Shown: one piece after another, positions 40,629-56,543 of the stretch | Layout of the letters: each line of letters begins with the position of its first letter | Position numbering within the stretch: position 1 is the stretch's first letter | Assembly: GCF_003143755.1 (NCBI RefSeq) | Contig: NZ_QFRI01000002.1 | Coordinates: 543,953-607,952, forward strand | Source of the DNA: Algibacter marinivivus | GTDB taxonomy: Bacteria > Bacteroidota > Bacteroidia > Flavobacteriales > Flavobacteriaceae | Length of the DNA stretch: 64,000 bases | Direction: 5' to 3' | Position numbers and translations under genes: made by a program | Notes under the pieces: model-generated | What the model was told of the DNA's origin: nothing | Database searches by the model: none | What the model saw: the letters and a program-made list of their open reading frames with translations, nothing else

Positions 40629-40736
40629 TTTGGGCGTTACCTATCTCCTGAATTTAGTTCAGGAAATAGGTCGGGCTTTCCGCTATATCTTTTTTGCTTT
40701 TATGGCAAAAAAGGATGTCGCTTCAATCCCTAACGC
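40629..40736 (+). repeat. Dispersed intergenic repeat, copy 4 (short form)
   Basis: Forward orientation: TTTGGGCGTTACC, a hairpin CTATCTCCTGAA / TTCAGGAAATAG, GGTCGGGCTTTCCGCTATAT, then an A/T-rich hairpin around TTTTTTGC and GCAAAAAA, and GTCGCTTCAATCCCTAACGC. The inner part differs from the long form and matches copy 5. It ends 15 bases before the MIP start codon. Confidence 0.88.
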
Positions 40737-40751
40737 AAAACACGAACTATA

Positions 40752-41443: not shown

Positions 41444-41490
41444 TTTTGTTTAACTTATTTAAATATTTGTTAAACATTTTGTATCTTTAC
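41444..41490 (+). promoter_or_regulatory. Operator-promoter of the first half of the photolyase cluster
   Basis: The 47-base element holds the perfect inverted repeat TGTTTAAC (41447-41454) / GTTAAACA (41469-41476) with a 14-base spacer, followed by the -7 box TATCTTTA (41482-41489). The ATG of the TetR-like gene is 18 bases after the -7 box, so the leader is short. The same element, with equal length and spacing, stands at 50024-50070, with most bases identical. The dyad next to the -7 box fits a DNA-binding dimer that represses or activates this promoter. Confidence 0.7.
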
Positions 41491-41506
41491 CATAAATATA
41501 ATCATT

Positions 41507-42163
41507 ATGGCAAAGAAAAAAACAGTTTCAAAAAACGATATTATAACCTGGTATATGGATTATGTCCTAGAACATAATCAAAATCCTAAGACCATATTTG
41601 CTTTTGCCAAAATGAATAATTTTGAAGAAGCAAAGTTCTACGAACATTTTGCGTCCTTTGAAGCTGTAGAGAAAGGCATTTTTGAAGCCTTCTTTACAAA
41701 TTCTGTAAATGCTTTATACAAAAGTGAAGACTACAAAATATTCGATGCAAGAAATAAACTACTAAGCTTTTACTACACATTTTTTGAAAACCTAACAGCA
41801 AACAGAAGTTACGTAAAGCACGTATTAGATAAGTATAAAAACGACTTAAAAGGCCTGAAAATGCTATCTGATTTAAAAACACATTTTACTATCTATGTAA
41901 GCGAGTTAGAGATTCAGATGTTAGACGTAAAACAAGAACAACTTGAAAAAATTCAAGATAAAGCATTAAAAGAATCAGCATGGTTGCAATTACTATTAAC
42001 CATGAAGTTTTGGCTAGATGACACCTCTGCTTCTTTCGAAAAGACAGATGTTTTCATTGAGAAATCAGTAAACACCACTTTTGATGTGTTAGATATTGCG
42101 CCCCTAAAAAGTGTTTTGGATTTAGGAAAATTTCTATTCAAAGAAAAATTTCAAATGAACTAG
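41507..42163 (+). CDS. TetR-like regulator, first gene of the photolyase cluster
   Basis: The 218-residue, mostly helical protein resembles flavobacterial TetR-type proteins. The N-terminal 50 residues (KNDIITWYMDYVLEHNQNPKTIFAFAKMNNFEEAKFYEHF) follow the TetR helix-turn-helix layout, and the rest resembles a ligand-binding helical domain with WLQLLLTMKFWLDD near 160. The HTH is more divergent than in typical TetR repressors, and FASFEAVEKGIFEAFF replaces the usual FxxKxxL segment. It could bind the dyad immediately upstream. The AarF gene follows after 6 bases; these two genes are commonly paired in this group as far as I know. Confidence 0.72.
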   Translation: MAKKKTVSKNDIITWYMDYVLEHNQNPKTIFAFAKMNNFEEAKFYEHFASFEAVEKGIFEAFFTNSVNALYKSEDYKIFDARNKLLSFYYTFFENLTANRSYVKHVLDKYKNDLKGLKMLSDLKTHFTIYVSELEIQMLDVKQEQLEKIQDKALKESAWLQLLLTMKFWLDDTSASFEKTDVFIEKSVNTTFDVLDIAPLKSVLDLGKFLFKEKFQMN

Positions 42164-42169
42164 AGTCCT

Positions 42170-43483
42170 ATGAAAACTATAGATAAAATACCAACTTCAA
42201 AAATACAACGTGCAACCAAATTGGTTTCTACGGGTGCAAAAGTTGGTGTAAATTATTTAAAATATTACGGCGATAAAATTGTAAATACTGAAGACGAGGC
42301 CAAAGCACGTCTCAATAAAAACAACGCTTCAGATATTTATGATGGTCTAAAACAATTAAAAGGGAGCGCCTTAAAAGTGGCACAAATGTTAAGTATGGAA
42401 AAAAGCATATTGCCACAGGCTTATGTTGAAAAATTCTCTTTAGCACAATTTTCAGTACCGCCATTGTCTGCGCCACTAGTAATAAAAACATTCAAAAAAT
42501 ATTTTGGAAAACATCCAAATGACATATTCGATACTTTTAACGCAACTTCTGTAAACGCTGCTAGCATCGGTCAAGTGCATATAGCAACTAAGAATGGGAA
42601 AAAACTTGCTGTGAAAATCCAATATCCGGGAGTTGCGGAGAGTATTGCTTCAGATTTAGCTATGGTTAAGCCTATAGCAATGAGTATGTTTAACATTAAA
42701 GGAAAAGACTCTGATAAATACTTTAAAGAAGTAGAAAATAAACTGGTTGAGGAAACAAACTATGTGTTGGAAATGAAGCAAAGCAAAGAAATTGCTTTAG
42801 CTTGTTCTCATATTTCCAATCTAGAGTTTCCAAAATATTATGAGGAGTTTTCATCTGAACGTATCATCACTATGGATTATATGGATGGTGAACATCTTTC
42901 TGAATTTACAGCATACAATACAAATCAAGATATTGCAAACAAATTAGGGCAAGCCCTCTGGGACTTCTATATGTACCAAATTCATAATTTGAAAAAAGTA
43001 CATGCAGACCCACACCCAGGAAATTTTTTAGTAAATGAAAAAGGAAAATTAATAGCGTTAGATTTCGGGTGTATGAAAACCATTCCTATGGCATTTTATA
43101 CACCCTATTTCGAATTAGCCAAACCAGAAAATATCAATAATCAGGACTATTTTGTTAAAAAACTCTATGAGTTAGAAATATTACGTGAAGATGACTCTGA
43201 AGAAGAATTAGCCTTTTTTACTGCCATGTTTCATGAGATGTTGAGCCTATTTACACAACCATTTCATCAAGATACTTTCGATTTTTCTGATGCTGAATTC
43301 TTTGGAAAAATTGCAGAGTTAGGAGAGCGCTATTCAAAAAGCACAGATTTAAAGAAGATGAATGGTAACCGTGGTTCCAAACATTTTATTTATATCAATA
43401 GAACCTTCTTTGGGTTATATAATTTAATGTTCGATTTAAAAGCAGAAAACATCAAAATCAACAATTATTTAAAATTGTCATAA
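42170..43483 (+). CDS. AarF/ABC1/UbiB family atypical kinase
   Basis: The 437-residue protein has the ABC1 kinase-like fold. The family KxGQ motif reads KVAQM (near residues 67-71), the alanine-rich nucleotide loop is AASIGQVH (near 124-131), the VAIK-type lysine is in VKIQYPG (near 147), the catalytic loop is HADPHPGNF (near 278-286) and the metal motif is LDFG (near 296-299). ABC1 proteins regulate quinone or other isoprenoid lipids, and plant and cyanobacterial members are linked to photo-oxidative stress. Flavobacteria use menaquinone, so a classic ubiquinone role is unlikely. The Gly-to-Ala change in KxGQ is a visible oddity. Confidence 0.9.
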   Translation: MKTIDKIPTSKIQRATKLVSTGAKVGVNYLKYYGDKIVNTEDEAKARLNKNNASDIYDGLKQLKGSALKVAQMLSMEKSILPQAYVEKFSLAQFSVPPLSAPLVIKTFKKYFGKHPNDIFDTFNATSVNAASIGQVHIATKNGKKLAVKIQYPGVAESIASDLAMVKPIAMSMFNIKGKDSDKYFKEVENKLVEETNYVLEMKQSKEIALACSHISNLEFPKYYEEFSSERIITMDYMDGEHLSEFTAYNTNQDIANKLGQALWDFYMYQIHNLKKVHADPHPGNFLVNEKGKLIALDFGCMKTIPMAFYTPYFELAKPENINNQDYFVKKLYELEILREDDSEEELAFFTAMFHEMLSLFTQPFHQDTFDFSDAEFFGKIAELGERYSKSTDLKKMNGNRGSKHFIYINRTFFGLYNLMFDLKAENIKINNYLKLS

Positions 43484-43484
43484 G

Positions 43485-44117
43485 ATGAAACACTTTAGTG
43501 AGGCAGATATTAAGAATTTAGACCATATCTATAAAATCAATTTGATTAATAGTTGTTCAGGCTACAAGTCTGCAAATTTAATTGGTACTGTTTCAGAAGA
43601 TGGCATCGAGAATGTTGCGGTGTTTAGTTCTGTAACTCACATTGGTTCAAGTCCTGCTATGTTGGGTTTCTTTTTAAGACCAACTACAGTTATTAGAAAC
43701 ACCTATGATAATATAAAAGCTTCCGGGTTTTATACCATAAATCATATTCACAAAAACATCATAAGTGATGCACATCACACCTCTGCAAAATATAAAAGTG
43801 AGATTTCAGAATTTGATGTTACCAATCTAAACCCAGAATACAAACCAAAATTTCAAGCACCTTTTGTGAAAAACGCCCCCGTTCAATTGGGAATGCAATA
43901 CGTTGAAGAATACGATATTAAAACAAATAATACCATTTTAGTGGTTGGTAAAATAGTGGGGTTGTATGTAAACGATAACCTTATTGAAGATGATGGCTTT
44001 ATCAACTTGTCAAAAGCTGAAGTCGCAGCTATTAATGGATTAGATGGTTATGCGGTAGCAGAAACTAAAACACGCTTTGGTTACCAAAGACCAAAAGCGT
44101 TAATACAACAGTCATGA
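43485..44117 (+). CDS. Flavin reductase-like FMN-binding split-barrel protein
   Basis: The 210-residue protein matches the flavin reductase domain of the FMN-binding split-barrel fold: SANLIGTVSEDGIENVAVFSS (about residues 28-48), PAMLGFFLRPTTVIRNTYDNI near 64-84, and the SGFYTINHI segment. Members reduce flavins with NAD(P)H or bind FMN tightly. In a cluster with four FAD enzymes, a role in flavin supply or reduction is plausible but inferred. It starts 1 base after the AarF stop and its end overlaps the next gene by 4 bases. Confidence 0.85.
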   Translation: MKHFSEADIKNLDHIYKINLINSCSGYKSANLIGTVSEDGIENVAVFSSVTHIGSSPAMLGFFLRPTTVIRNTYDNIKASGFYTINHIHKNIISDAHHTSAKYKSEISEFDVTNLNPEYKPKFQAPFVKNAPVQLGMQYVEEYDIKTNNTILVVGKIVGLYVNDNLIEDDGFINLSKAEVAAINGLDGYAVAETKTRFGYQRPKALIQQS

Positions 44118-45583
44118 ATATACTCGTAACAGGTGCAACTGGCTATATAGGCAAACGTTTAATTCCTTTTCTATTGAATGAAGGACATACTGTTATTTGT
44201 GTTGTTCGAGATAGATTAAGAGCAGAAAAGAGTTATTTTGAAGATGAAAATGTATATGTTATTGAAGCTGATTTTTTAAAACCTGAAACGCTTCAAAATA
44301 TTCCAAAGAAAATTGATGTTGCATATTACCTGATTCATTCTATGTCTAACTCTTCGAAGGATTTTGAAAGTTTAGAAGAGCGTTGTGCTATAAATTTCAA
44401 AAACTATATAGAAACTACCGATGTAAAACAAGTTATTTACTTAAGCGGTATCACTAATGAAGATAAGCTCTCTAAGCATTTACAATCCCGGAAAAATGTT
44501 GAAGACAAACTTGCATCAGATAACTATGCGCTTACCATTTTTAAAGCTGGTATTATTGTAGGCTCTGGCAGTTCTTCTTTTGAAATTATAAGAGATTTAG
44601 TAGAAAAATTACCATTTATGATTGCTCCAAAATGGCTGAATACAAAAACGCAACCATTGGCAGTTAGAGACGTTCTAGGGTTCTTATCTAAAGCAGCAGG
44701 CAATGAAGCAGTGTATAATGAAACCTATGATGTTTTTGGACCAGAAGTGATTACCTATAAAGATATGTTACTACAATTTGCTGAAGTTAGGGGCTTAAAA
44801 CGGTACATATTAACAGTGCCTGTGATGACGCCTAAATTGTCTTCTTACTGGCTATATTTTGTAACATCCACCTCATACAAATTAGCATCGTCTTTAGTGG
44901 ATAGTATGGGGATTCAAATCATAGGAAAAGAAAGTGATATTAATGCATTATTAGAGGTTAATCCAATAACCTATAAAGAAGCAGTTGCACTAGCTTTTGA
45001 AAAAATTGAGCAGAATAGTATTGTTTCCAGTTGGAAAGACTCTATGGTAAGTAGCGGCAGACTTAGAAATAATTTACATAAATATGTGAATGTACCTAAG
45101 TTTGGTTGTTTTAAAGATTACAAAGAACGCTATGTGATTGATACCAAGGAAACCATTGAAAAAATATGGAGTATTGGCGGTACTAATGGCTGGTATTATG
45201 GCACCATCTTATGGCGTATTAGAGGCTATATCGATAAACTTTTTGGCGGTATTGGTTTAAGACGAGGACGTACAAACCCAACTGAGTTGAAAGCAGGTGA
45301 TGCTTTAGATTTTTGGCGTGTTATTTTTGCCAATAAATCCCAACAAAAACTACTGCTTTATGCAGAAATGCGCTTACCTGGAGAGGCTTGGTTAGAATTT
45401 AAAATAGAAGACAATAAATTAAAACAAACAGCAACTTTTAGACCTCGCGGACTTTGGGGTAGATTATACTGGTACACTGTACTTCCCTTCCATGGATTTA
45501 TTTTTTCTGGAATGATTAATAAACTTGTTAAAGTTGAGTCACAAAAAGCAACATTTACCACAGAAAACGTGTCTAATTTGTAA
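44114..45583 (+). CDS. NAD(P)-binding SDR with C-terminal DUF2867
   Basis: The 489-residue protein has an atypical short-chain dehydrogenase N-terminal half ([40 protein letters not shown]) of about 300 residues. The C-terminal DUF2867 domain (about 320-480: [28 protein letters not shown] and [32 protein letters not shown]) is related to SRPBCC-like lipid-binding folds. The substrate is unknown. Its ATG overlaps the preceding stop by 4 bases, and its last 50 bases overlap the DUF2256 gene. Confidence 0.87.
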
Positions 45584-45680
45584 ACGCCCTTTCGCATGGA
45601 GAAAGAAATGGGAAAAGAATTGGGAACATGTAAAATATTGTAGTGAACGATGCAGGAGAAACAAAACAATATCGGCTTAG
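45534..45680 (+). CDS. DUF2256 zinc-ribbon protein (48 residues)
   Basis: A 48-codon frame starts with TTG at 45534 and reads [17 protein letters not shown], then [19 protein letters not shown] and SERCRRNK. This is the full DUF2256 signature, including a CxxC at residues 13 and 16 and CxxxC at 36 and 40, which should bind one zinc ion. It overlaps the end of the upstream SDR gene by 50 bases and the start of the Cry-DASH gene by 31 bases in different frames. The family is frequently encoded beside cryptochromes and photolyases; its function is unknown. There is no ATG in frame, so TTG is the only plausible start that keeps the conserved HKKQHLP beginning. Confidence 0.9.
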
Positions 45681-46960
45681 TATGGTTTAGAAACGATTTA
45701 AGAGTTGAAGATAATACCGTTTTAAACCAAGCCATTAAAAACCATAAACACGTTATTGCAGTTTACTGTTTTGACCCAAGGCATTTTGAAATGGACAAGT
45801 TTGGTTTCAAAAAAACGGAACAATTTAGAGCCAAGTTTTTAATTGAAACTATACATGATTTAAAAAAAAATTTAAAGGCTTTAAATATTGACTTGCTCGT
45901 TTATATAGAAAAACCTGAAATAGCTATTAAAGCTATCATTGAAACTTTCAATATTAATAGTGTTTACCTTCAAAAGGAATGGACAACCGAAGAATCATCA
46001 GTATTTCAAAATGTAAAATCCGCTTTATCACATACTATCTTATTTAAAGGCTATTTTGATCAATTTCTATTTCATCCAAAAGATATTGATATGTCTTTTT
46101 CTGAAATCCCGAAAGTGTTTACTAATTTCAGAAAGCATATTGAGAAACAGAGTAAAGTAAGATTTTCTGTTGAAAATAACGAAATCAAAAATAATATCTC
46201 ATCTGAAAACAACACACAAATACCTACGCTTAAAGATTTAGGTTTTGAAGATTTTGAAGCTCATCCTAATACTGCTTTTCCATTTAAAGGCGGAGAAACA
46301 AACGCTATAGAGAGGTTACAGCATTATTTTTTTGAAACAAAAAAACTTGGGTTTTACAAAAAGACAAGAAATGGTTTAATTGGAAAAGACTACAGCTCAA
46401 AATTTTCGCCTTGGTTAGCAAATGGTAGTATTTCAGCTAGAACCATTTATTGGCAAGTGAAACAATTTGAAAAAGAACATTATAAAAATCAATCCACATA
46501 TTGGCTCATTTTTGAATTAATCTGGCGCGATTATTTTAAATACATTTCGCTAAAACATGGAAGTAATATCTTCAAAATTGGTGGCATTCTTCAAAAAGAT
46601 TACGAGTGGAAGAATGATAAAAATGTAATTCAAAAATGGATTAATGGAGAAACAAAATCGGCTTTTGTAAATGCCAATATGATTGAACTAAAAAAAACAG
46701 GCTGGATGAGTAATAGAGGGAGACAAAACGTAGCCTCTTATTTTGCAAAAGACCTTAAACTAGATTGGAGAATTGGTGCTGCTTATTTTGAGTCAATGCT
46801 TATTGACTATGATGTACATAGCAATTATGGTAATTGGTTGTATGTGTCTGGTGTTGGTAACGACCCCAGAGATAGAAAGTTTAATGTGAATTTACAGACT
46901 GAACGTTATGATTCGTCTGGTAAATTTCAAAATTTATGGTTACAAGAAACCTTATTTTAA
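45650..46960 (+). CDS. Cryptochrome DASH
   Basis: The 436-residue protein starts with the antenna-domain motif [13 protein letters not shown] (residues 10-22). The FAD domain shows [36 protein letters not shown] (near 350-372) and [27 protein letters not shown] (near 386-412), the last being characteristic of the DASH group. DASH proteins repair cyclobutane dimers in single-stranded or looped DNA and may also signal light. The asparagine that faces the flavin N5 is kept (SNYGNW). Its start overlaps the DUF2256 gene, and the next photolyase gene begins directly after its stop. Confidence 0.93.
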
Positions 46961-48493
46961 ATGAAAATACTTAGGCTCATATTAGGTGATCAACTGAACA
47001 TCAAACACTCGTGGTTTAAGGAAACAAACGATGCTATTATGTATTGCATGTTTGAAATGCGTCAAGAAACAGACTATGTAGCCCATCATATTCAAAAGGT
47101 TATCGGTTTTTTTGCTGCAATGCGTGAGTTTTCAAAAGACATGAAGAGCAAAGACCACAAGGTTATTTATTTAAAAATTAATGATGAAGATAACACTCAA
47201 AGTCTTGCCGATAATCTTTCATTTTTAATAAAGAAGCTTGAGATTGAAACTTTTGAATACATCTATCCTGATGAGTATAGATTAGATGAACAATTACATA
47301 CATTCTGTAAATCATTATCCATCCCCTCAAAAGTAGTTTCGGCAGAACATTTTTATACAAAACGTGAAGATTTAAGCAATTTCTTCAAAGGCAAAAAGCA
47401 ATATCTCATGGAAAACTTCTATAGAGACATGCGTAAAAAGTACAATATCTTAATGATTGCCAATCAACCTGAAGGTGGTAAATGGAACTACGATAAAAGC
47501 AACAGAAATAAATGGAAAGGCGATGTTGAAATCCCAAATTACAAACTATTTAAAAATGATGTTTCAGAAATAGCAAAAGACATAGAAAACACTAAAATTA
47601 AAACCATTGGAACCTTTGAAACCAAAACATTCTCCTACCCTATTTCTCGTACTCAAGCCTTAGAACAGCTCAAATATTTTTGCGAACATCTGCTAATTCA
47701 TTTTGGCGATTATCAAGATGCTATGCATACTGATGAAGACTATTTATTTCATTCACGATTATCATTTGCAATGAATTTAAAACTCATTTCTCCAAAAGAC
47801 ATTGTAACTACAATAATGAATTATTATAGGAAACATGGAGAACACATCAACATCTCTCAAGTAGAAGGTTTTATTAGACAAATAATTGGCTGGCGGGAAT
47901 ATATGCGTGGAATGTATTGGACATTTATGCCTGAATACAAAACTAAAAACGAACTCGAAAATCATAATAAACTACCCGACTTTTTCTGGACAGGTAATAC
48001 CAAAATGAATTGTTTAAAACACGCCATTACTAATTCTCTGGACAATGGTTATGCACACCACATTCAACGTTTGATGATTACTGGAAACTACGCTCTTTTA
48101 ACACAAACTAATCCAGACGAAGTTGATGCTTGGTATTTGGGTATTTATGTAGATGCAATAGAGTGGGTTCAACTTACCAATACTAGAGGTATGAGTCAAT
48201 TTGCTGATGGTGGTAAAATTGCAACAAAACCTTATGTGTCTTCAGGGTCATACATCAATAAAATGAGCAATTATTGTTCGGGTTGCCATTACAACAAAAG
48301 CAAGAAATTAGAAGACGATGCATGTCCGTTTAACAGCCTATACTGGAATTTTTTAGATGAAAAACGCGAATATTTAGGAAATAACTTCAGAATGGGGATG
48401 ATGTATAATTTACTTGATAAGATGGATAAAACCGAACTACAAAATATAAAAGAAAAAGCGCAACATATCATAGCAAATCAGGATGACTACTAA
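46961..48493 (+). CDS. Iron-sulfur bacterial cryptochrome/photolyase (PhrB-type, 6-4 photolyase)
   Basis: The 510-residue protein matches the FeS-BCP group: ILGDQLNIKHSWF at the start, VEGFIRQIIGWREYMRGMYW near 304-323 and a C-terminal iron-sulfur region. Four cysteines stand at residues 351 (KMNCLK), 439 and 442 (YCSGC) and 455 (DACPFN), the same spacing as the 4Fe-4S ligands of Agrobacterium PhrB. PhrB-type enzymes repair (6-4) photoproducts and use a ribityllumazine antenna instead of folate. The gene begins at the first base after the Cry-DASH stop, and its end overlaps the next gene by 11 bases. Confidence 0.93.
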   Translation: MKILRLILGDQLNIKHSWFKETNDAIMYCMFEMRQETDYVAHHIQKVIGFFAAMREFSKDMKSKDHKVIYLKINDEDNTQSLADNLSFLIKKLEIETFEYIYPDEYRLDEQLHTFCKSLSIPSKVVSAEHFYTKREDLSNFFKGKKQYLMENFYRDMRKKYNILMIANQPEGGKWNYDKSNRNKWKGDVEIPNYKLFKNDVSEIAKDIENTKIKTIGTFETKTFSYPISRTQALEQLKYFCEHLLIHFGDYQDAMHTDEDYLFHSRLSFAMNLKLISPKDIVTTIMNYYRKHGEHINISQVEGFIRQIIGWREYMRGMYWTFMPEYKTKNELENHNKLPDFFWTGNTKMNCLKHAITNSLDNGYAHHIQRLMITGNYALLTQTNPDEVDAWYLGIYVDAIEWVQLTNTRGMSQFADGGKIATKPYVSSGSYINKMSNYCSGCHYNKSKKLEDDACPFNSLYWNFLDEKREYLGNNFRMGMMYNLLDKMDKTELQNIKEKAQHIIANQDDY

Positions 48494-49964
48494 ACCACAA
48501 ATACATATAGTTTGGTTGAAGCGTGATTTACGCCTTCAGGATAATGAAGCCATTTTTAATGCGCTAAAATCTAAAAAAACTGTACTTCTATTATATTGTT
48601 TTGAACCCTTACTTATCAATGATCCTCATTATAGCAAACGCCATTGGAATTTTATAAAAGAATCCATTTTAGATTTAAATAAAACGCTAGAAACCCACAA
48701 CTCTAAAATACTTGCTATTCAGTCTGATATTATCGCCGCAATTAATCAATTACAAAATCATTATAGTATTTCAGACATCTATTCACATCAAGAAACAGGC
48801 ATTTTAACAACTTTTGAACGTGATAAAAATTTTAAGCGATATTGTAAAAACAATCTAATTAATTGGCACGAAAACGTAAACAATGGTGTTCAAAGAGGGT
48901 TAAAAAACAGAGATAGTTGGAATAAAATGGTAGATGCTTTTTATGCCCTAGAACCATTACCATTTAATCCTAGTGAAAATCAATTATTATCTATTCAAGA
49001 TATTACTATTTTAGAACAAAACTTCAATCTTCCAGAGTTAAAAACACCTGAGCAGACCCCATTTCAAAAAGGCGGACGCACTATGGGGCTTAGATATTTA
49101 AAATCGTTTTTTGAGGGTCGTTATCAAAATTACATGTTCAATATTTCTAAACCAGAACAAGCAAGAACAAGCTGCAGTAGAATTTCGCCATACATTGCTT
49201 GGGGTAATTTATCAGTAAGAGAAGTGTATCATCTGGCCTATCATTTAAAGAAAACATCAAAACACAAAAAAGCTTTAGAAGCCTTTATGTCTCGTTTACG
49301 TTGGCAAACGCATTTTATTCAAAAGTTTGAAATGGAACACACCATGGAAGAAGCTAGCGTAAATAAGGGGTTTCATAAATTAAAAAAAGCCATTTCAAAA
49401 CAATACCAAATAGCTTGGAAAACAGGACAAACAGGCTACCCACTAGTTGATGCCTGTATGCGTTGTTTGAATGAAACAGGTTATTTAAATTTTAGAATGC
49501 GTGCTTTAGTGGTTTCTTTTTTTACACATAATCTTTGGCAACCATGGCAAGAAGCTACTACACACCTTTCACAAATGTTTTTGGATTTTGAACCTGGAAT
49601 CCACTTTCCACAACTGCAAATGCAGGCTGGAGAAACTGGAACAAACATGTTACGCATATATAATCCTGTTAAGAACAGTTTGGAACACGACCCTGATGCT
49701 ATATTCATTAAGAAGTGGGCTCCAGAATTAAAACATTTGGACACACCTTTTGTGCACGAGCCTTATTTAATGACAGACATGGAACAACAATTCTATAATT
49801 TCAAATTAGGTGTTGATTATCCAAATCCGATTGTAGATATAGAAACAACAAGAAAAAAGGCAGGAGATACACTCTGGAATCTCAGAAAAAACAAAACTGT
49901 AATAAAAGAAAGTAAAAGAATACTCCAAAAACATACCCAAAGAAAACGTTCACCTAACACGTAA
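48483..49964 (+). CDS. Divergent cryptochrome/photolyase-family protein
   Basis: The 493-residue protein has the photolyase N-terminal domain (IVWLKRDLRLQDNEAIF, residues 9-25) and FAD domain (GGRTMGLRYLKSFF, RISPYIAWGNLSVREVY, LVDACMRCLNETGYLNFRMRALVVSF). The region that normally reads D-Y-D-x-A-S-N-x-G-N-W-Q-W instead reads DFEPGIHFPQLQM. In an ungapped alignment the flavin-facing Asn becomes His and the WQW pair becomes LQM. That argues for a changed photochemistry or a receptor-like role; DNA repair is uncertain. It ends the first unit of the cluster. Confidence 0.88.
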   Translation: MTTKPQIHIVWLKRDLRLQDNEAIFNALKSKKTVLLLYCFEPLLINDPHYSKRHWNFIKESILDLNKTLETHNSKILAIQSDIIAAINQLQNHYSISDIYSHQETGILTTFERDKNFKRYCKNNLINWHENVNNGVQRGLKNRDSWNKMVDAFYALEPLPFNPSENQLLSIQDITILEQNFNLPELKTPEQTPFQKGGRTMGLRYLKSFFEGRYQNYMFNISKPEQARTSCSRISPYIAWGNLSVREVYHLAYHLKKTSKHKKALEAFMSRLRWQTHFIQKFEMEHTMEEASVNKGFHKLKKAISKQYQIAWKTGQTGYPLVDACMRCLNETGYLNFRMRALVVSFFTHNLWQPWQEATTHLSQMFLDFEPGIHFPQLQMQAGETGTNMLRIYNPVKNSLEHDPDAIFIKKWAPELKHLDTPFVHEPYLMTDMEQQFYNFKLGVDYPNPIVDIETTRKKAGDTLWNLRKNKTVIKESKRILQKHTQRKRSPNT

Positions 49965-50023
49965 CTCTATAAATATCAAAAACTTAAACTAGCTATAAGT
50001 TTTATCAATACTATGATTTTATT

Positions 50024-50070
50024 TTTTGTTTAACTTTTTTTATAATAAGTTAAACATTTTGTATATTTGA
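50024..50070 (+). promoter_or_regulatory. Operator-promoter of the second half of the photolyase cluster
   Basis: This is the second copy of the element at 41444: the dyad TGTTTAAC (50027-50034) / GTTAAACA (50049-50056) with a 14-base spacer, then the perfect -7 box TATATTTG (50062-50069). A TTG that could begin the next frame overlaps the -7 box and cannot be the start if this promoter is used; the ATG at 50088 lies 18 bases after the box, as in the first copy. Confidence 0.7.
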
Positions 50071-50087
50071 AGTATCAAGTAATAAAA

Positions 50088-50516
50088 ATGATACTAGATA
50101 CTACATACCTCGACAAAAAACATAAACACCTATTAAGTGATTTAGTGGGTAGATCTTTCACTTTATTAGAGTCTTTGAAAATGAAAGGTATTGGTTCTAA
50201 ACGCATGATAATTGAAGATGTTAGCCCAAACTTACAATCTTACATGAATACAGTGTCAGACGCTAACTATGCAAATATAGAATTACGGAAAAATGGCATT
50301 TTACTATTCATAAATAAAGGATTACAAAATTTTACTTGGGCAATCCCTTACTATCAATTAGTTATTTACAAAACAAACGGAGCTAGTATTCATGCGCAAG
50401 GAAAATTTATTCACTTTAAAAACAATAAAACATTTAAAGAGAATAAGCGATTTTTTGAGAAAATGCTAGATGAAAAGATTAAATATGACGAACAGTATAA
50501 ATTTCAAAATATATGA
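50088..50516 (+). CDS. Unknown 142-residue protein, first gene of the second photolyase unit
   Basis: I do not recognise this family. The start is ATG 50088 (MILDTTYLDKKHKHLLSDLV); a longer frame from a TTG would begin inside the -7 box. The protein looks soluble and alpha/beta, with a middle part IELRKNGILLFINKGLQNF and YYQLVIYKTNGASIHAQGKF and a charged helical C-terminus (FKENKRFFEKMLDEKIKYDE). There are no cysteines or obvious cofactor motifs. It stands directly behind the shared operator-promoter and overlaps the TIGR03643 gene by 4 bases, the place often held by a regulator or by a gene central to the unit. Confidence 0.75.
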   Translation: MILDTTYLDKKHKHLLSDLVGRSFTLLESLKMKGIGSKRMIIEDVSPNLQSYMNTVSDANYANIELRKNGILLFINKGLQNFTWAIPYYQLVIYKTNGASIHAQGKFIHFKNNKTFKENKRFFEKMLDEKIKYDEQYKFQNI

Positions 50517-50785
50517 CTTTAACTGTTGAAGATATTGATAGAATTATAGAAATGGCTTGGGAAGACCGAACTACTTTTGAATCTATACATTTTCAATTTG
50601 GTTTAAAAGAGCAGGAAGTTATTGAATTAATGCGAAGAGAAATGAAACCTAGTAGTTTCAGAATGTGGCGCAAACGGGTTCAAGGGCGTTCCACAAAACA
50701 TGAAAAATTAAGAGTATTTGAAAAGGGACGCTTTAAATGTAGTAGACAGAAACAGATAACACACAATAAAATATCAAAACGTTAA
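50513..50785 (+). CDS. TIGR03643/DUF2805 family protein
   Basis: The 90-residue protein shows the full family signature: DIDRIIEMAWEDRTTFESI at residues 7-25, FGLKEQEVIELMRREMKPSS near 29-48 and RMWRKRVQGRSTKH near 50-63. The first 45 residues look like a helix-turn-helix; the tail is basic. The function is unknown. The family, like DUF2256, is commonly found next to photolyases and cryptochromes, so both markers occur in this cluster. It overlaps the previous gene by 4 bases and lies 50 bases before folE. Confidence 0.9.
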   Translation: MTLTVEDIDRIIEMAWEDRTTFESIHFQFGLKEQEVIELMRREMKPSSFRMWRKRVQGRSTKHEKLRVFEKGRFKCSRQKQITHNKISKR

Positions 50786-50835
50786 CGTGCTTTGATTGGT
50801 TGTAATAGATTAAGACAGCACATAAAAAAGAAGCT

Positions 50836-51525
50836 ATGCAATTAGAAAAATTAAGAACAAACGGACACAAGTTAAACGGATTCTCTTTAGATGATATTGG
50901 AGATGACCATCTCTATACAGGTCTAGAAACACCAATGAAAGCTGATGCTTTCAAATTATCTGACGAAGAAAAAAAAGAACGTATTGCCATTTTGTTTGAA
51001 GAAATAATGGATGTTATGGGCTTAGATTTAACTGATGATTCGTTACAAGGCACTCCTAAACGTGTTGCAAAAATGTACATAGATGAAATATTTTCAGGTT
51101 TAAACCCTGCTAATAAACCAAAAGTAGCCTTGTTTGATAATAAGTATCAATACAATCAAATGTTGGTTGAGAAAAACATCACGTTCTATTCAAATTGTGA
51201 GCATCATTTTGTACCTATTATTGGTAAAGCACATGTGGCTTACATTTCATCTGGAAAAGTAATTGGCCTTTCAAAATTAAACAGAATAGTACAATATTAT
51301 GCGAAACGCCCGCAAGTTCAAGAGCGTTTAACAAACCAAATAGCTAACGAGTTAAAATCAATTTTAGACACAGAAGATGTAGCAGTAATAATAGATGCTA
51401 AACATTTATGTGTGTCTTCTAGAGGTATTAAAGATGATACTTCTTCGACGGTTACCGCGTTTTATGGCGGACAATTTAATACTTCAGAAAAAATTACAGA
51501 ATTGCAAAATTATTTAAACAGTTAA
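50836..51525 (+). CDS. folE: GTP cyclohydrolase I
   Basis: The 229-residue enzyme converts GTP to 7,8-dihydroneopterin triphosphate, the first step to folate and biopterin. Zinc ligands are visible as Cys121 and His124 (SNCEHHFVPI) and Cys192 (KHLCVSSRGIKDD), with GLSKLNRIVQYYAKRPQVQERL between them. The N-terminal 40 residues are an extension of the type common in flavobacteria. Placement inside a photolyase cluster suggests a supply of the methenyltetrahydrofolate antenna of photolyases or of protective pterins; the housekeeping copy may lie elsewhere. Confidence 0.97.
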   Translation: MQLEKLRTNGHKLNGFSLDDIGDDHLYTGLETPMKADAFKLSDEEKKERIAILFEEIMDVMGLDLTDDSLQGTPKRVAKMYIDEIFSGLNPANKPKVALFDNKYQYNQMLVEKNITFYSNCEHHFVPIIGKAHVAYISSGKVIGLSKLNRIVQYYAKRPQVQERLTNQIANELKSILDTEDVAVIIDAKHLCVSSRGIKDDTSSTVTAFYGGQFNTSEKITELQNYLNS

Positions 51526-51529
51526 TATT

Positions 51530-51748
51530 ATGGAATTAATAAACAGAGCCTTAGAATTTGAGCAAAGAAAAATGAGATCATTGTCTACTAGCGATCGTGT
51601 TAAAATCTCTAGAGAAGCAAAAGCATTAATATTAGATTTAAATCAAATCTATAAACAGCATAAAGATGAGCATATAATGGATATCATGAAGCGCTTAACC
51701 GTTATTAAAAGAAAAGTGGAAAAGCGATTAAAAGGACGTTTATTATGA
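51530..51748 (+). CDS. Small helical protein, paralogue A (72 residues)
   Basis: This 72-residue product (MELINRALEFEQRKMRSLST...) is all-helical and strongly charged. It shares most of its length with the 71-residue product of the gene at 51906: ALEFEQR, SREAK/SREVK, LILDLNQIY/LILGLNDIY, IMDIMKRLTVIK/IMDLMKRLTVIK and KRLKGR. It has no cysteine or cofactor motif. It starts 4 bases after folE, so it is in the same message. The function is unknown. Confidence 0.75.
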   Translation: MELINRALEFEQRKMRSLSTSDRVKISREAKALILDLNQIYKQHKDEHIMDIMKRLTVIKRKVEKRLKGRLL

Positions 51749-51905
51749 TAGTATAACTTTCAATATATATATTGAAATATTAGTAAATATTAAATTTTAC
51801 CTAATAATCATCAATAAAAATAGTTAATCTCACATAATTTACTATATTGGCAAAATTGGTATGCAAATTGCACCAATTAAGATAGATTAAAGATTAAAAA
51901 AAATT

Positions 51906-52121
51906 ATGGAGATTATTGACAAAGCTTTAGAGTTCGAGCAACGTAGACACACGTTTAAGACAACGAGTGAGCGTATCGAGTCATCTAGAGAAGTAAAAAG
52001 TTTAATATTAGGTTTAAACGATATCTACAAAGTAGAAAAAGATCCTGAGATTATGGATTTAATGAAGCGTTTAACAGTCATTAAACAAAAAATAGAAAAG
52101 CGGCTAAAGGGCAGGCCATAA
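51906..52121 (+). CDS. Small helical protein, paralogue B (71 residues)
   Basis: This is the paralogue of the 72-residue protein upstream, with the same frame layout: MEIIDKALEFEQR, SREVKSLILGLNDIY, then PEIMDLMKRLTVIK and KRLKGRP. A 157-base AT-rich gap precedes it and may hold a promoter; the gap has no dyad like those at 41.4 and 50.0 kb. The SDR gene follows 21 bases later. Retention of two copies in tandem suggests a useful dosage or a heterodimer; the role is unknown. Confidence 0.75.
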   Translation: MEIIDKALEFEQRRHTFKTTSERIESSREVKSLILGLNDIYKVEKDPEIMDLMKRLTVIKQKIEKRLKGRP

Positions 52122-52142
52122 AAACTAAATGCCCTGAAACCC

Positions 52143-52826
52143 ATGAAAACGATAATAGTAGTTGGTGGAAGTAAGGGCATTGGAAAAGCTTTAGTTGAAA
52201 AACTATTAGCCAATTTTAATGTTATAAACATTAGCAGAAGTACTCCAGAAATATCGCACAACAACCTAACTCACCACCAATGCGATGTTACACAAGACGA
52301 ATTACCAGAAATTGATAATGCAGACGGACTTGTTTATTGTCCTGGGAGCATTAACTTAAAACCTATAGGACGTTTAGGTATTGATGATTTTAAAAATGAT
52401 TTTGAAATCAATGTACTTGGTGCTGTAAAAGTGATTCAAAAATATCTTCCAATCTTAAAGAATGGAAGCAAACCTTCTATTGTTTTATTTAGTACTGTGG
52501 CAGCAAAACTAGGTATGCCTTACCACGCTAGTATAGCAGTTGCAAAATCGGGTATTGAAGGCTTAGTAAAATCATTAGGTGCAGAACTAGCGCCTACCCT
52601 ACGTATAAATGCAATTGCGCCAACAGTAACTGATACAGATTTAGCTTCAAAGCTATTACGAAACGAGAAGATGATAGAAAATATTACTGATCGTCATCCA
52701 CTAAAGAAATTTTTATCTCCAGAGGAAGTTGCAGATATGGCTGCATTTCTATTATCTGAAAAGTCATCATCTCTTTCAGGGCAAATATTTGAAATGGATT
52801 GTGGTATTGTAAGTTTTAAAATTTAA
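52143..52826 (+). CDS. Short-chain dehydrogenase/reductase, atypical active site
   Basis: The 227-residue protein has the SDR cofactor loop (VVGGSKGIGKAL, residues 6-17), the CPGS-type motif in place of NNAG (VYCPGSINLK) and LFSTVAAKLGMP with the active-site serine region. The usual Y-x-x-x-K is replaced: the lysine sits in AVAKSGIEGLV and the nearest tyrosine is eight residues before it (YHASIAVAK), not four. This may indicate an altered or enoyl-reductase-like arrangement. It lies 4 bases upstream of the peroxidase gene in the cluster. Confidence 0.83.
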   Translation: MKTIIVVGGSKGIGKALVEKLLANFNVINISRSTPEISHNNLTHHQCDVTQDELPEIDNADGLVYCPGSINLKPIGRLGIDDFKNDFEINVLGAVKVIQKYLPILKNGSKPSIVLFSTVAAKLGMPYHASIAVAKSGIEGLVKSLGAELAPTLRINAIAPTVTDTDLASKLLRNEKMIENITDRHPLKKFLSPEEVADMAAFLLSEKSSSLSGQIFEMDCGIVSFKI

Positions 52827-52829
52827 ATT

Positions 52830-53369
52830 ATGAATACACTAAAAGCATTTGTAGCAACATTCAGTTCAAAATCAACAGTTAAAAAGATGGATATAGACTC
52901 TATTTATGATATTAAAATTAATGCTCTTAACGATAAACCTATTGACTTAGCTAATTTTAAAGGAAAACACGTCCTTTTTGTAAATGTAGCTTCAAAATGT
53001 GGTTTTACGCCGCAGTATGAAGGTTTACAAAAGCTACACGATACTCATAAAGATAAAATTCAAATTATCGGTGTGCCTTGTAACCAATTTGGTGGACAAG
53101 AGCCTGGTAATGCTGAAGCTATAGAATCCTTTTGTCAGGTAAATTATGGTGTTACATTTCAAATTACAGAAAAAATTGATGTTAAAGGAAAGCACCAACA
53201 CCCTTTGTATACTTGGTTAACACAAAAAATTAATAATGGCGTAAAAGATTCTTCTGTAAAATGGAATTTTCAAAAATATTTAATTGATCCAGATGGCAAT
53301 TTGATAGATTATTTCTTTTCATCTACAAATCCATTAAGTTCAAAAATCACAACACATTTAAAAAAATAA
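52830..53369 (+). CDS. Glutathione peroxidase-family thiol peroxidase
   Basis: The 179-residue protein has the GPx motifs NVASKCGFTPQYEGL (peroxidatic Cys near residue 57), GVPCNQFGGQEPG (near 84-96) and VKWNFQKYLIDPDG (near 145-158). A cysteine stands where selenoproteins have selenocysteine. Bacterial members usually take electrons from thioredoxin and reduce lipid or hydrogen peroxides. The first 19 residues precede the conserved DIYDI start; an internal ATG (residue 20) is an alternative. In this cluster it would handle peroxides formed under light. Confidence 0.92.
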   Translation: MNTLKAFVATFSSKSTVKKMDIDSIYDIKINALNDKPIDLANFKGKHVLFVNVASKCGFTPQYEGLQKLHDTHKDKIQIIGVPCNQFGGQEPGNAEAIESFCQVNYGVTFQITEKIDVKGKHQHPLYTWLTQKINNGVKDSSVKWNFQKYLIDPDGNLIDYFFSSTNPLSSKITTHLKK

Positions 53370-53373
53370 AGTT

Positions 53374-53550
53374 ATGTTCGGATTATTTAAAAAGAAATCA
53401 AAATTAGAAAAACTAGAAGACAAGTTTAAAAAACTGATGAAAGAATGGCATGAGTTATCTACCATAAACCGGTCTGCAAGTGATGAAAAATATGCAGAAG
53501 CGCAAATTATTGCAGAACAAATTAATGCATTAAGAAATGAAGCTGCTTAA
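53374..53550 (+). CDS. 58-residue Lacal_2735-like small protein
   Basis: The frame starts MFGLFKKKSKLEKLEDK and continues LMKEWHELSTINRSASDEKYAEAQ, the pattern of the small flavobacterial family named Lacal_2735. It is helical with a likely coiled coil and no cysteine. Its start is 4 bases after the peroxidase stop, and its last 14 bases overlap the TspO gene, so it is translated with both. The function is unknown. Confidence 0.8.
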   Translation: MFGLFKKKSKLEKLEDKFKKLMKEWHELSTINRSASDEKYAEAQIIAEQINALRNEAA

Positions 53551-53998
53551 ATACATCTTTGTCTTTTTAATAATAAATTTTGGTGCCTTAGCTATTGGCA
53601 GTTGGCTTATGGATAATGGCCCTCAAACTGTATGGTATACCAATTTAAATCAAGCACCTTGGACACCTCCAGGATGGGTTTTTGGTGTTGCTTGGACTAC
53701 TATAATGATTTGTTTTTCAATCTACATGGCATATTTATATAAATTGAAACCAAACGCAACAGTCATCTTTTTATTTGTTGTTCAATTTATATTTAATGTT
53801 ATTTGGAACTATATTTTTTTCAATCAGCATTTGATTGGTTTTGGATTTACAACCATTTTATTACTAACTTTTATTGTTGCTACATTTACTTTTTACTTCA
53901 AAAAAGATATGGGTGCAAAAACACTTCTTATTCTCCCATATCTAATTTGGCTTTGTATTGCTACCTCTTTAAATGGATATATTTTACTGAATAACTAA
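53537..53998 (+). CDS. TspO/MBR family protein
   Basis: The 153-residue membrane protein has five helices with the TspO signature: LNQAPWTPPGWVFGVAWTTIM (residues about 37-57), NVIWNYIFF near 89, and IWLCIATSLNGYIL near the end. Bacterial TspO proteins bind porphyrins and haem and are linked to oxidative stress and to control of light-harvesting genes. It overlaps the small Lacal_2735-like gene and is followed 2 bases later by the SRPBCC gene. Confidence 0.93.
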   Translation: MKLLKYIFVFLIINFGALAIGSWLMDNGPQTVWYTNLNQAPWTPPGWVFGVAWTTIMICFSIYMAYLYKLKPNATVIFLFVVQFIFNVIWNYIFFNQHLIGFGFTTILLLTFIVATFTFYFKKDMGAKTLLILPYLIWLCIATSLNGYILLNN

Positions 53999-54000
53999 AT

Positions 54001-54462
54001 ATGAAAATATACAGACTTCATAAAAAACAGAATTTACCAATTACTATAGATCAAGCTTGGGATTTTCTATCAGACCCTAAGAACTTGAAAACTATTACGC
54101 CCGATTATATGGGGTTTCATATTCTATCTGGTGCAGACAGACCTATGTTTGCAGGACAAATTATTCAATACATCGTAACTCCAGTATTAGGTATTAAAAC
54201 CAAATGGGTTACGGAGATTACACATAGTGTTGATAAGCATTATTTTGTAGACGAGCAACGCTTTGGCCCTTATGCACTATGGCATCACAAGCATTTTATT
54301 AAAGAAATTAAAGGTGGTGTAGAAATGGAGGACATTATTGATTATAAAGTGCCTTTTGGTTTGCTAGGGCAACTTGTACACCCTATTTTAGTAAAACCAA
54401 AATTGGAAGAAATTTTTAGTTATAGAACTGAAAAACTAGAGGAACTTTTTGGTAAATACTAA
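54001..54462 (+). CDS. SRPBCC-fold ligand-binding protein
   Basis: The 153-residue protein begins MKIYRLHKKQNLPITIDQAWDFLSDPKNLKTITP, the typical start of the START/Bet-v1-like SRPBCC fold, and ends with a long C-terminal helix (IFSYRTEKLEELF). A central segment TKWVTEITHSVDKHYFVDEQ leads to GPYALWHHKHFI and the VPFGLLGQLVHPILV region. Such proteins bind lipids or pigments; members are regularly encoded beside photolyases in proteobacterial light-induced clusters. The CPD photolyase gene starts 30 bases downstream. Confidence 0.87.
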   Translation: MKIYRLHKKQNLPITIDQAWDFLSDPKNLKTITPDYMGFHILSGADRPMFAGQIIQYIVTPVLGIKTKWVTEITHSVDKHYFVDEQRFGPYALWHHKHFIKEIKGGVEMEDIIDYKVPFGLLGQLVHPILVKPKLEEIFSYRTEKLEELFGKY

Positions 54463-54492
54463 TTCTATTGTCATTAAATTTATTTTTTTTAA

Positions 54493-55800
54493 ATGAAACA
54501 AACAGTAAATATATTCTGGTTTCGTCGTGATTTAAGATTAAATGATAATGTTGGTTTTTACGAAGCTTTAAAAGGTAAAAATCCTGTTTTACCCATTTTT
54601 ATTTTTGATTCTGAAATTTTAGATAAACTCCCTGAAGACGATGCTCGTGTAATGTTTATACACGAAACACTTCAGGAAATGAAATCTACTTTACAAGACA
54701 AACACAACAGTAGCATTGCTTTGTTTTATGGTAAACCGATAAGTATTTACAAAGCATTAATTGAGGCATATAATATTGAAGCGGTTTACACCAATCATGA
54801 TTACGAGCCTTATGCTAAAAAGCGTGATGCTGAAATAGACACGTTTTTATCTAAACATCATATTCAATTTAACACTTTTAAAGATCAGGTTATTTTTGAA
54901 AAAGACGATGTAACAAAAAGTGATGGTAATCCGTATTTGGTATACACACCATACATGAAACGTTGGAAAGAAACGTTTAGGAAACTGGATTTTAAAATTT
55001 ATACTTCTGAAAAATTGCTTGATAATTTAATTTCGGGAGTAGATTTACCAAGTTTAAATTTATCGGATATTGGATTTAAAAAATCTAACCAAAAGATTGA
55101 ACCCTATACTGTAAATCCAAAATTGATTCAAGACTACGAAGCTACACGAAATTTCCCTGCACAAGATGCGACTTCTAAATTAGGACCACATTTGCGTTTT
55201 GGAACAGTAAGTGTACGTAAAATGGTAAAAAAAGCCATTGCTGAAACCAATGAAATATTTTGGCAAGAACTTATTTGGCGCGAGTTTTTTATGCAGATTC
55301 TTTGGCATTTTCCTCATACAAAAGATTCCAGTTTTAAGCCAAAGTACGACCGTATTGAATGGCGTAATAACGAAAACGAGTTTAAAGCTTGGTGTGAAGG
55401 TAAAACTGGCTACACGTTAGTTGATGCTGGTATGCGCCAACTAAATCAAACTGGGTTTATGCATAACCGTGTACGTATGTTAGTAGGTAGTTTTTTATGC
55501 AAACATTTACTTATTGATTGGCGCTGGGGAGAAGCCTATTTTGCAGAAAAACTCCACGATTACGATATGGCAAGCAATGTTGGTAACTGGCAATGGGTTG
55601 CTGGTTGTGGTGTTGATGCTGCACCTTACTTCAGGATTTTTAACCCAACTACACAAATACAAAAGTTCGATAAGGATTTAAACTACATAAAACAATGGGT
55701 TCCAGATTTTCAGGAACTGACGTATCCACAACCTATTGTAGATCATAAATTTGCTAGAGAACGCTGTTTGGAGACATATAAGCGTGCTTTGAATTTGTAA
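54493..55800 (+). CDS. phr: Class I CPD photolyase (deoxyribodipyrimidine photolyase)
   Basis: The 435-residue enzyme uses light to split cyclobutane pyrimidine dimers. It starts with IFWFRRDLRLNDN (residues 6-18). The FAD domain has IFWQELIWREFFMQILW, TGYTLVDAGMRQLNQTGFMHNRVRMLVGSFL and DYDMASNVGNWQWVAGCGVDA, the flavin-facing Asn and the WQW tryptophan being intact. The length is shorter than E. coli PhrB (472) but typical for flavobacteria. It ends the cluster and is followed by a weak hairpin. Confidence 0.95.
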   Translation: MKQTVNIFWFRRDLRLNDNVGFYEALKGKNPVLPIFIFDSEILDKLPEDDARVMFIHETLQEMKSTLQDKHNSSIALFYGKPISIYKALIEAYNIEAVYTNHDYEPYAKKRDAEIDTFLSKHHIQFNTFKDQVIFEKDDVTKSDGNPYLVYTPYMKRWKETFRKLDFKIYTSEKLLDNLISGVDLPSLNLSDIGFKKSNQKIEPYTVNPKLIQDYEATRNFPAQDATSKLGPHLRFGTVSVRKMVKKAIAETNEIFWQELIWREFFMQILWHFPHTKDSSFKPKYDRIEWRNNENEFKAWCEGKTGYTLVDAGMRQLNQTGFMHNRVRMLVGSFLCKHLLIDWRWGEAYFAEKLHDYDMASNVGNWQWVAGCGVDAAPYFRIFNPTTQIQKFDKDLNYIKQWVPDFQELTYPQPIVDHKFARERCLETYKRALNL

Positions 55801-55856
55801 ATAAAAACTACGCAAAACAACGTTTATAATTAATTACTAGTATTCAACTACCTACA

Positions 55857-55874
55857 AAAAACCATGTGGTTTTC
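55857..55874 (+). terminator. Weak hairpin terminator after phr
   Basis: AAAACC pairs with GGTTTT across a four-base loop, followed by only a mixed C/T tract. It is a plausible but weak end for the photolyase cluster. Confidence 0.4.
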
Positions 55875-55957: not shown

Positions 55958-56335
55958 ATGAAAGTTACTGCAGAAAAAAATGAAAAAGTCGCTAATATGA
56001 TATTTGCATTCATTTATCCGCTTTACTTGAATAGGCTGGTGAAAAATGATAGAACAAAAGAAGAACTTGACCAAGTAATAGAATGGTTTACTGGTTTTGA
56101 TAAAGATGATTTACAAACACTTATAAAAGATAAAGTAACTTTTGGAACATTTTTTAAAAAAGCAAAAATACACCCTAATGCACACTTGATTAAAGGTGTT
56201 GTTTGTGGTTATAGAATTGAAGACATAGAAGAAGAATTTGAATTGTACAAACAGTGCAGACAAATGGAAAAGCTGATTGATGAATTAGCAAGAGGTCGTA
56301 AAATGGATAAAATTTTACGGGAAGAAAAGAAATAA
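55958..56335 (+). CDS. DUF2200 family protein
   Basis: The 125-residue protein matches DUF2200: NMIFAFIYPLYLNRLVKNDRTKEELDQVIEWFTGF (about residues 13-47), then VTFGTFFKKAKIHPNAHLIKGVVCGYRIEDIEE (about 58-90). It is small, soluble and of unknown function. Whether it belongs to the photolyase cluster is uncertain; it is separated by 157 bases and a weak hairpin. Confidence 0.88.
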   Translation: MKVTAEKNEKVANMIFAFIYPLYLNRLVKNDRTKEELDQVIEWFTGFDKDDLQTLIKDKVTFGTFFKKAKIHPNAHLIKGVVCGYRIEDIEEEFELYKQCRQMEKLIDELARGRKMDKILREEKK

Positions 56336-56459
56336 ATCTGGTGTTTAAAAAATAATTAACTTGAAGCTACTTTGATAAATCATATTCAAATACGCTAAAA
56401 CTAACCTCTCCAAAAGTAATATACCTGTTAATTAAAAACTTAAGCTTTCAAACCGACCC

Positions 56460-56543
56460 GCGTTAGGGATTGCAGCGGCATCCTTTTTTGAGGTACGATA
56501 AAAAGATATAGCGGAAAGCCCGACCCTTGTGGTAACGCCCAAA
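56460..56543 (-). repeat. Dispersed intergenic repeat, copy 5 (short form)
   Basis: Reverse orientation: GCGTTAGGGATTGCAGCGGC, ATCCTTTTTTGAGG, AAAAAGATATAGCGG, AAGCCCGACCCTTGTGG and TAACGCCCAAA. It shares the short inner part (TCCTTTTTTG ... AGATATAGCGG) with copy 4. The rest of the 298-base gap has no gene. Confidence 0.85.

Follow-up and report, generated by a model that had tools for sequence, protein, structure and literature searches.

What would hold four kinds of photolyase or cryptochrome in one gene cluster with pterin, flavin and peroxide-defence genes, and what would switch them on together? The question is raised by a stretch of Algibacter marinivivus DNA, a 64,000-nucleotide window of contig NZ_QFRI01000002.1, in which open reading frames and family profiles delimit 19 tightly packed genes, all on the plus strand, spanning positions 41507-55800. 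A sequence-only reading of the region had proposed a light-response regulon of which the repair enzymes would be one part, similar to clusters controlled by LitR or CarH, and all genes that it named were recovered with the strand and packing that it had described, including the four kinds of photolyase or cryptochrome. Its view of the cluster as a single module stands as far as linkage is concerned, but the genes fall into two halves. The first comprises eight genes (41507-49964) whose neighbours overlap or lie no more than 6 bases apart, and the second comprises 11 genes (50088-55800), ending with the photolyase gene phr; between them is a gap of 123 bp (49965-50087) that holds a second promoter. 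We read the halves as two adjacent operons of about 8.5 and 5.7 kb, with a carotenoid operon on another contig as the putative third arm of the same regulon.

From comparison of sequences we consider it probable, with good confidence, that one trans-acting regulator of the CarH type keeps the operons for pigment, photolyases and antioxidants repressed in darkness, and that light would free them.

A palindrome shared by cluster and carotenoid promoters

Both halves of the cluster are headed by the same perfect palindrome, TGTTTAAC-N14-GTTAAACA, which pattern search places at 41447-41476 before the first half (operator 1) and at 50027-50056 before the second (operator 2); no copy arose when the window was shuffled 100 times. 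The promoter regions of the two halves are themselves repeats, 79% identical over 61 nt. In the whole 3.34-Mb genome the exact palindrome has exactly three copies, and the third lies on another contig, with a MerR/CarH-like gene on one side and a carotenoid operon on the other. From this third operator the operon runs crtI (NF058655 and TIGR02734, both above cut-off), a phytoene synthase-type gene (crtB; PF00494), a 151-aa gene without a family match that we take to be a probable crtZ, and a lycopene cyclase gene (PF18916). When two mismatches were allowed, the search of this genome was noisy, with 12 sites against 5 for the reversed control pattern; of the additional sites, the analysis took up the pair before a fasciclin gene that is described below.

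The conservation of the palindrome was assessed in 149 genomes of the family, of which 57 contain the exact form (86 sites in total) and only two contain the reversed pattern. We read the surroundings of 79 of these sites: 27 lie at MerR-crt, 22 before TetR (the first gene of the cluster), 12 before U149 (the first gene of the second half), seven at fasciclin genes, four at SRPBCC, two at folE, two at Lacal_2735 and three elsewhere. In other words, 76 of the 79 are at MerR-crt, at the cluster promoters, at fasciclin genes or at other genes homologous to those of the cluster. Of the three sites elsewhere, one lies before the gene of an ALO/FAD-binding oxidase, one before that of a ferritin-like protein and one before a CIA30 gene, after which homologues of SDR2 and Lacal_2735 follow. 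Among the other seven of the 86, four lie beside MerR judging by coordinates and one is at a fasciclin gene.

A similar result was obtained when loci were retrieved through their genes. A site with at most two mismatches precedes TetR in 48 of 61 loci (the window and 60 of 106 matches, mostly the best-scoring ones) and U149 in 32 of 37, with controls of 0/61 and 0/37. In the closest 80 of 451 relatives, some of whose loci are cut by contig ends, the site was found before U149 in 78/80 and before TetR in 71/72 (controls 1/80 and 0/72). These 80 loci carry the names Algibacter, Jejuia, Hyunsoonleella, Psychroserpens, Winogradskyella, Lacinutrix and others, and some are labelled just Bacteroidia or Flavobacteriales. 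The order of the genes is intact in 74 of them, 71 contain both TetR and phr, and the full gene set is present in 41 when the pair of small genes is counted as one; the conserved linkage in relatives that the proposed light-response regulon calls for was thus found. In order to have a measure that presupposes neither the sequence nor the spacing of the palindrome, we counted the exact inverted repeats of 8 bp that lie upstream of TetR. Their spacing peaks at 14, seen in 23 of the 61 loci; spacings 12 and 16 account for 10 loci each, and any other spacing between 0 and 25 for at most four. In four genomes the block DUF2256-Cry-DASH-FeS photolyase-cryptochrome is jointly absent from the locus, and the other cluster genes and both operators are kept.

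The position of the palindrome relative to the promoter was also examined. Promoters of Bacteroidota have the -7 consensus TAnnTTTG and a -33 position. Boxes resembling the -7 element were read from the sequence on the plus strand at 41482-41489 (TATCTTTA, promoter 1) and at 50062-50069 (TATATTTG, promoter 2), each 5 nt past its operator. The motif TAnnTTT starts exactly 5 nt past the operator in 36 of 48 TetR sites and 29 of 32 U149 sites; in shuffled controls it occurs anywhere in a 14-nt range in 26%. At crtI the arrangement is different: TAnnTTT is inside the operator, at positions 16-22, in 25 of 25 sites, a set that includes loci retrieved by the operator pattern, and 22 of the 25 have the first ATG 0-3 nt past the operator. 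Should translation start at that ATG, the crtI transcript would be leaderless or almost leaderless. Both geometries, with the operator over the -7 box at crtI and just upstream of it at the cluster, would fit steric repression. A generic scan for promoters and terminators gave no excess over shuffles (59 against 71.0 and 7 against 6.8, respectively).

A CarH-like MerR protein as candidate regulator

The most likely common regulator is the CarH-like MerR protein whose gene directly precedes crtI, at 16703-17602 of contig C1 of the assembly, the cluster being on contig C4. The sequence-only reading had remarked that no MerR-type B12 sensor was present; this is correct for the cluster but not for the genome, where the CarH-like gene lies beside crtI at the third operator. 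The N-terminal helix-turn-helix (HTH) of the protein matches PF13411 (52.4 bits, cut-off 21.6), and its B12-binding helical domain matches PF02607 (37.4 bits, cut-off 23). The best matches in the PDB are 3whp, titled 'probable transcriptional regulator' (E 4.4e-14), and 5c8d, CarH (E 5.3e-14), and the alignment with CarH extends into the region of the Rossmann domain, to residue 228. In this alignment W144, E154-H155 and E192-x-H194-x-x-G197 of the protein fall on the W-x9-EH and ExHxxG motifs of 5c8d, positions that hold B12 in CarH. Across 91 MerR loci, W144, E154, E192 and H194 are present in all 91, H155 in 89 and G197 in 88. It should be noted that 19 of these loci entered the set through the operator pattern (nine from the family and 10 from another family), two were picked since their genomes have operators, and one entered through TetR. 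The genome also encodes a cobalamin adenosyltransferase (PF01923).

For loci fetched by MerR alone, the site lies beside MerR in 28 of 30 of the closest homologues and in 12 of 39 more distant ones, with controls of 0/30 and 0/39. The arms of the palindrome were then compared with the 11-bp units nAnnTnnACAn that form tandem CarH operators (PMC8156234, PMC9304148). All six arms of the three operators fit the CarH half-site TnnACA and four of the six fit the full unit. The arms are inverted and 22 bp apart from centre to centre, and they do not form tandem direct repeats. In 59 imperfect sites, taken with at most four mismatches (52 of 61 TetR and 35 of 37 U149 loci have such a site; one TetR locus was dropped, its best match looking unrelated), 88 of 94 substitutions are at positions that are free in the CarH consensus. 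This gives modest support, because 75 of the substitutions are at the spacer-side position of the arm and without that position the count is 13 against 6.

According to this model, the MerR protein with adenosylcobalamin would occupy TGTTTAAC-N14-GTTAAACA in the dark and block the promoters. At crtI the bound operator would cover the -7 box and end beside the first ATG, and at the cluster promoters it would lie just upstream of the -7 box, at the -33 region. Light would break the Co-C bond and the protein would be released, which would induce the pigment, photolyase, pterin/flavin and peroxide-defence genes together. The earlier proposal of a light-response regulon gains support in this form, since linkage is conserved and a shared operator ties the two halves to each other and to crt; the word 'light' in it comes from homology and gene content. 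In five loci imperfect operators upstream of merR have the right arm ATGAACA, which seems to run over the merR start codon, an overlap that would suggest autoregulation of merR.

The palindrome was also followed beyond the family. The exact site was found in 39 of 246 genomes drawn from the order and in 39 of 296 drawn from the class, with the reversed control in four genomes each time; both draws include the genome of the window and some of its relatives. In the order draw, the exact site is absent from all genomes with the label f4 or f15. Of the sites that were read in a second family of the order, nine are at pairs of MerR and ECF sigma genes and one is at MerR-crtI, and among the class-level loci 11 of 14 read have the site near MerR, ECF sigma, SRPBCC or folE. 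Altogether the operator was seen at MerR-ECF sigma pairs in 13 loci outside the family. Streptomyces has a comparable layout, LitR-LitS, with the MerR/LitR gene beside an ECF sigma gene. The resemblance suggests that the pairs represent a LitR/LitS-like ancestral layout in Bacteroidia. The window's genome differs from LitR-LitS in that no ECF gene adjoins MerR and the operator is at structural operons. With confidence only slightly above even, we would describe an ancient CarH-type B12 light sensor of Bacteroidia with an inverted operator of its own, which would have an ECF sigma gene as target in several families and directly control a dispersed sunlight regulon in Flavobacteriaceae. Such a regulon would comprise carotenoids, four photolyase/cryptochrome lineages, pterin, peroxide defence, a fasciclin lipoprotein that may bind carotenoids and, in a single relative, the synthesis of retinal. 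In that relative the exact operator precedes a gene for beta-carotene 15,15'-dioxygenase, an enzyme of retinal synthesis. A search of the Algibacter marinivivus genome for rhodopsin (PF01036) gave no match, and the control matched nowhere either, so that absence is not established.

If the model is true, a single sensor of visible light would determine how much UV repair many flavobacteria are capable of, and this capacity would depend on B12. Many marine bacteria must take up B12. The model predicts that the sun protection of Flavobacteriaceae hinges on this vitamin, and it names a candidate photoreceptor, an operator and a gene set for their light responses. It would also place U149, DUF2256, DUF2805, Lacal_2735 and the pair of 72-aa proteins in a putative sunlight-defence regulon.

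Alternative readings and known switches

Several findings weigh against a CarH-type regulator acting through this palindrome. The match of the MerR protein to the Rossmann B12-binding domain (PF02310) is 14.1 bits, under the cut-off of 32.1. No site within two mismatches was found at 27 of the 39 more distant MerR loci, and 92 of the 149 family genomes are without the exact operator, yet a MerR match was obtained in 132 of the 149. Those tetrameric CarH proteins that have been characterised recognise direct repeats in tandem and not inverted ones (PMC9304148), although the same paper calls operator design plastic and describes inverted repeats in the CarA site. Furthermore, genome G022 has the exact operator before TetR and a MerR that is 33% identical, three genomes with diverged MerR have no recognisable site before TetR, and two have a site beside MerR and none before TetR.

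The alternative that survives best keeps MerR as the binder of the operator and changes the signal. The protein could sense redox state or singlet oxygen, or act with a partner in the way of the B12-independent CarA, and B12 would then not be the light antenna. The weak Rossmann match speaks for this alternative; CarA is a precedent (PMC9304148), as are class II LitR proteins without one B12 domain (PMC9758184). However, the residues of W-x9-EH and ExHxxG hardly vary and the genome has an adenosyltransferase gene, and we regard this alternative as unlikely.

A second alternative, for which we see a smaller chance still, assigns the palindrome to the TetR protein of the cluster, which would control both halves and crt and sense a ligand such as a lipid or a product of photooxidation. 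It is common for TetR proteins to recognise palindromes in the promoter of their own gene. In this cluster the TetR gene adjoins operator 1 and stays with the cluster in 73 of the 80 loci, and the site kept before TetR in G022 despite a distant MerR would also be explained. On the other hand, the site is kept beside MerR in nine genomes that gave no TetR match, it occurs at MerR-ECF sigma pairs in other families, and its arms fit the CarH half-site. Moreover, G052, the sole TetR-bearing genome without a MerR match, has no site before TetR (6 mismatches). On these four grounds TetR was rejected as the sole regulator. Strongly diverged merR genes provide a further view of the binder. Leaving aside another family of the order, 10 merR genes have an identity below 0.35, and six of them are preceded by a site with the arm TTAGACA. 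In genome G035, where MerR is far diverged, both cluster operators are shifted to TGTCTAA/TGTATAA...TTAGACA, and the merR gene itself is preceded by the similar TGTCAAA...TTAGACA. This joint shift looks like co-evolution of a protein with its DNA site.

That the linkage is merely a conserved DNA-repair island, with the operators reflecting promoter conservation in an AT-rich genome, is hardly credible: the -7 box and its flanks are AT-rich and the repeated promoter regions may derive from a duplication, but the reversed controls are near zero (2/149, 4/246, 0/61, 0/37, 0/69, 1/80, 0/72 and 4/296) and crt, fasciclin and folE genes that are unlinked have the sites as well.

The preferred reading, a CarH-type MerR protein that would repress all three operons, can be compared with known switches. 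CarH (Thermus thermophilus, 5c8d; Myxococcus; Bacillus megaterium) and class I LitR share with the candidate the MerR HTH, the W-x9-EH and ExHxxG motifs in the B12 region, crt neighbours and the half-site TnnACA (PMC8156234, PMC9304148). They differ in operator arrangement, with tandem direct repeats there and inverted units 22 bp apart here, and the putative targets here also include operons for photolyases and antioxidants and a fasciclin protein. In Pseudomonas putida and P. mendocina, photolyase, SDR, cryB and folE genes are light-induced under the control of a class II LitR (PMC9758184). That protein keeps one of two B12 domains and works with LOV proteins, whereas the candidate here keeps the B12 residues. 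The Pseudomonas clusters include ufaM (furan fatty acid synthase), which was not found by family among the 19 genes here, and LitR is within the cluster there, while MerR is unlinked here. In Vibrio cholerae, the MerR-like VCA0056 is in a predicted operon with a photolyase gene and is required for part of the blue-light response (PMC5241685); this again is a linked arrangement, with the MerR-like gene linked to phr, unlike the unlinked gene here. For Chryseobacterium lacus, light-induced crt genes have been described for which no car or lit operon was found and a new regulator was proposed (PMC7064467).

LitR/CarH control of carotenoids is already known, and for photolyase, SDR, cryB and folE genes of Pseudomonas, control by a class II LitR has been published (PMC9758184). 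Relative to this known type of switch, with which the gene content here is also similar, the new elements are the different phylum, the inverted operator, the trans-encoded sensor of the putative B12 type and the larger candidate target set. Among open-licence papers searched by title and the start of the abstract, none was found on such a regulon in Bacteroidota, and no open-licence paper searched co-mentions at least two of DUF2256, TIGR03643 and photolyase. In a paper on the mining of cobalamin photoreceptors (PMC11796333), a word search for Bacteroid-, Flavobact-, photolyase and operator gave no hit.

The fasciclin genes lead to another comparison. In the genome of Algibacter marinivivus, two tandem imperfect operators with two mismatches each (contig C5, 199308-199337 and 199351-199380) lie between an mnmA-like gene and a gene for a fasciclin-domain lipoprotein-like protein. 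AstaP, an algal carotenoid-binding fasciclin protein, has FAS1 domains and a setting of photo-oxidative stress (PMC10147662, PMC7477208). The bacterial protein shares just the FAS1 domain with AstaP, and a putative link to carotenoids is to be read as a lead.

Members of the cluster

The first half begins with the TetR-family regulator (TetR_C_23; 41507-42163; PF17931, E 8.8e-45), followed by an AarF/ABC1 atypical kinase (42170-43483; PF03109), a flavin reductase-like protein (43485-44117; PF01613) and an NmrA-type SDR with a C-terminal DUF2867 (44114-45583; PF11066, PF13460). The small Cys protein DUF2256 (45525-45680; PF10013, E 2.3e-22) has a TTG start and overlaps both neighbours. Next come three of the photolyase/cryptochrome members. 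Cry-DASH (45650-46960) scores 512.8 bits with TIGR02765 against a cut-off of 317.05 and matches PDB entries 6kii and 1np7. The protein at 46961-48493 (DPRP; PF04244) has its best PDB match in 7ykn, titled '6-4 photolyase (FeS-BCP, CryPro)' (E 1.6e-162), followed by 4dja (E 3e-124), and is assigned as an FeS-BCP (6-4)-type photolyase by its homology to solved FeS-BCP/PhrB proteins. The third, at 48483-49964, is a divergent cryptochrome/photolyase-like protein (PF03441); it is under the curated cut-off of every family in the profile scan that identified Cry-DASH, and its PDB matches spread over several classes with no close one.

The second half begins with U149, a 142-aa protein (50088-50516). 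A TTG at 50067 was considered as its start; because this codon sits in the -7 box, the start was set at the ATG at 50088. U149 has no Pfam match. Its high-confidence predicted model (pLDDT 92.8) consists of a strand-rich domain and a C-terminal helix, and a fold search with this model gave weak matches, none with E below 0.001; the 50 listed titles are mostly those of PH, PTB, EVH1 or FERM-domain proteins. It is followed by DUF2805/TIGR03643 (50513-50785; PF10985, TIGR03643) and folE, GTP cyclohydrolase I (50836-51525; TIGR00063). Two small proteins form a paralogue pair recognised as a DNA repeat, one of 72 aa (51530-51748) and one of 71 aa (51906-52121). The pair is 72% identical in DNA over 149 nt and has no Pfam family above cut-off; the 157-bp gap between the two genes may hold an internal promoter. 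The remaining genes encode an SDR oxidoreductase (52143-52826; PF13561), a glutathione peroxidase-like protein (52830-53369; PF00255), a small protein of the Lacal_2735 family (53374-53550; NF033487, 81.8 bits, cut-off 32), TspO (53537-53998; PF03073), an SRPBCC-like protein (54001-54462; PF03364, 20.4 bits, under the cut-off of 23.4) and, as the last gene, the class I photolyase phr (54493-55800; PF03441/PF00875; PDB 1tez and 1owl).

A DUF2200 gene at 55958 was considered as a further member and rejected, because none of the 80 homologous loci contains it. On either side of the cluster lies a Flavo-1 RNA (RF01705), the two in opposite orientation, one at 40665-40741 on the minus strand and one at 56447-56529 on the plus strand.

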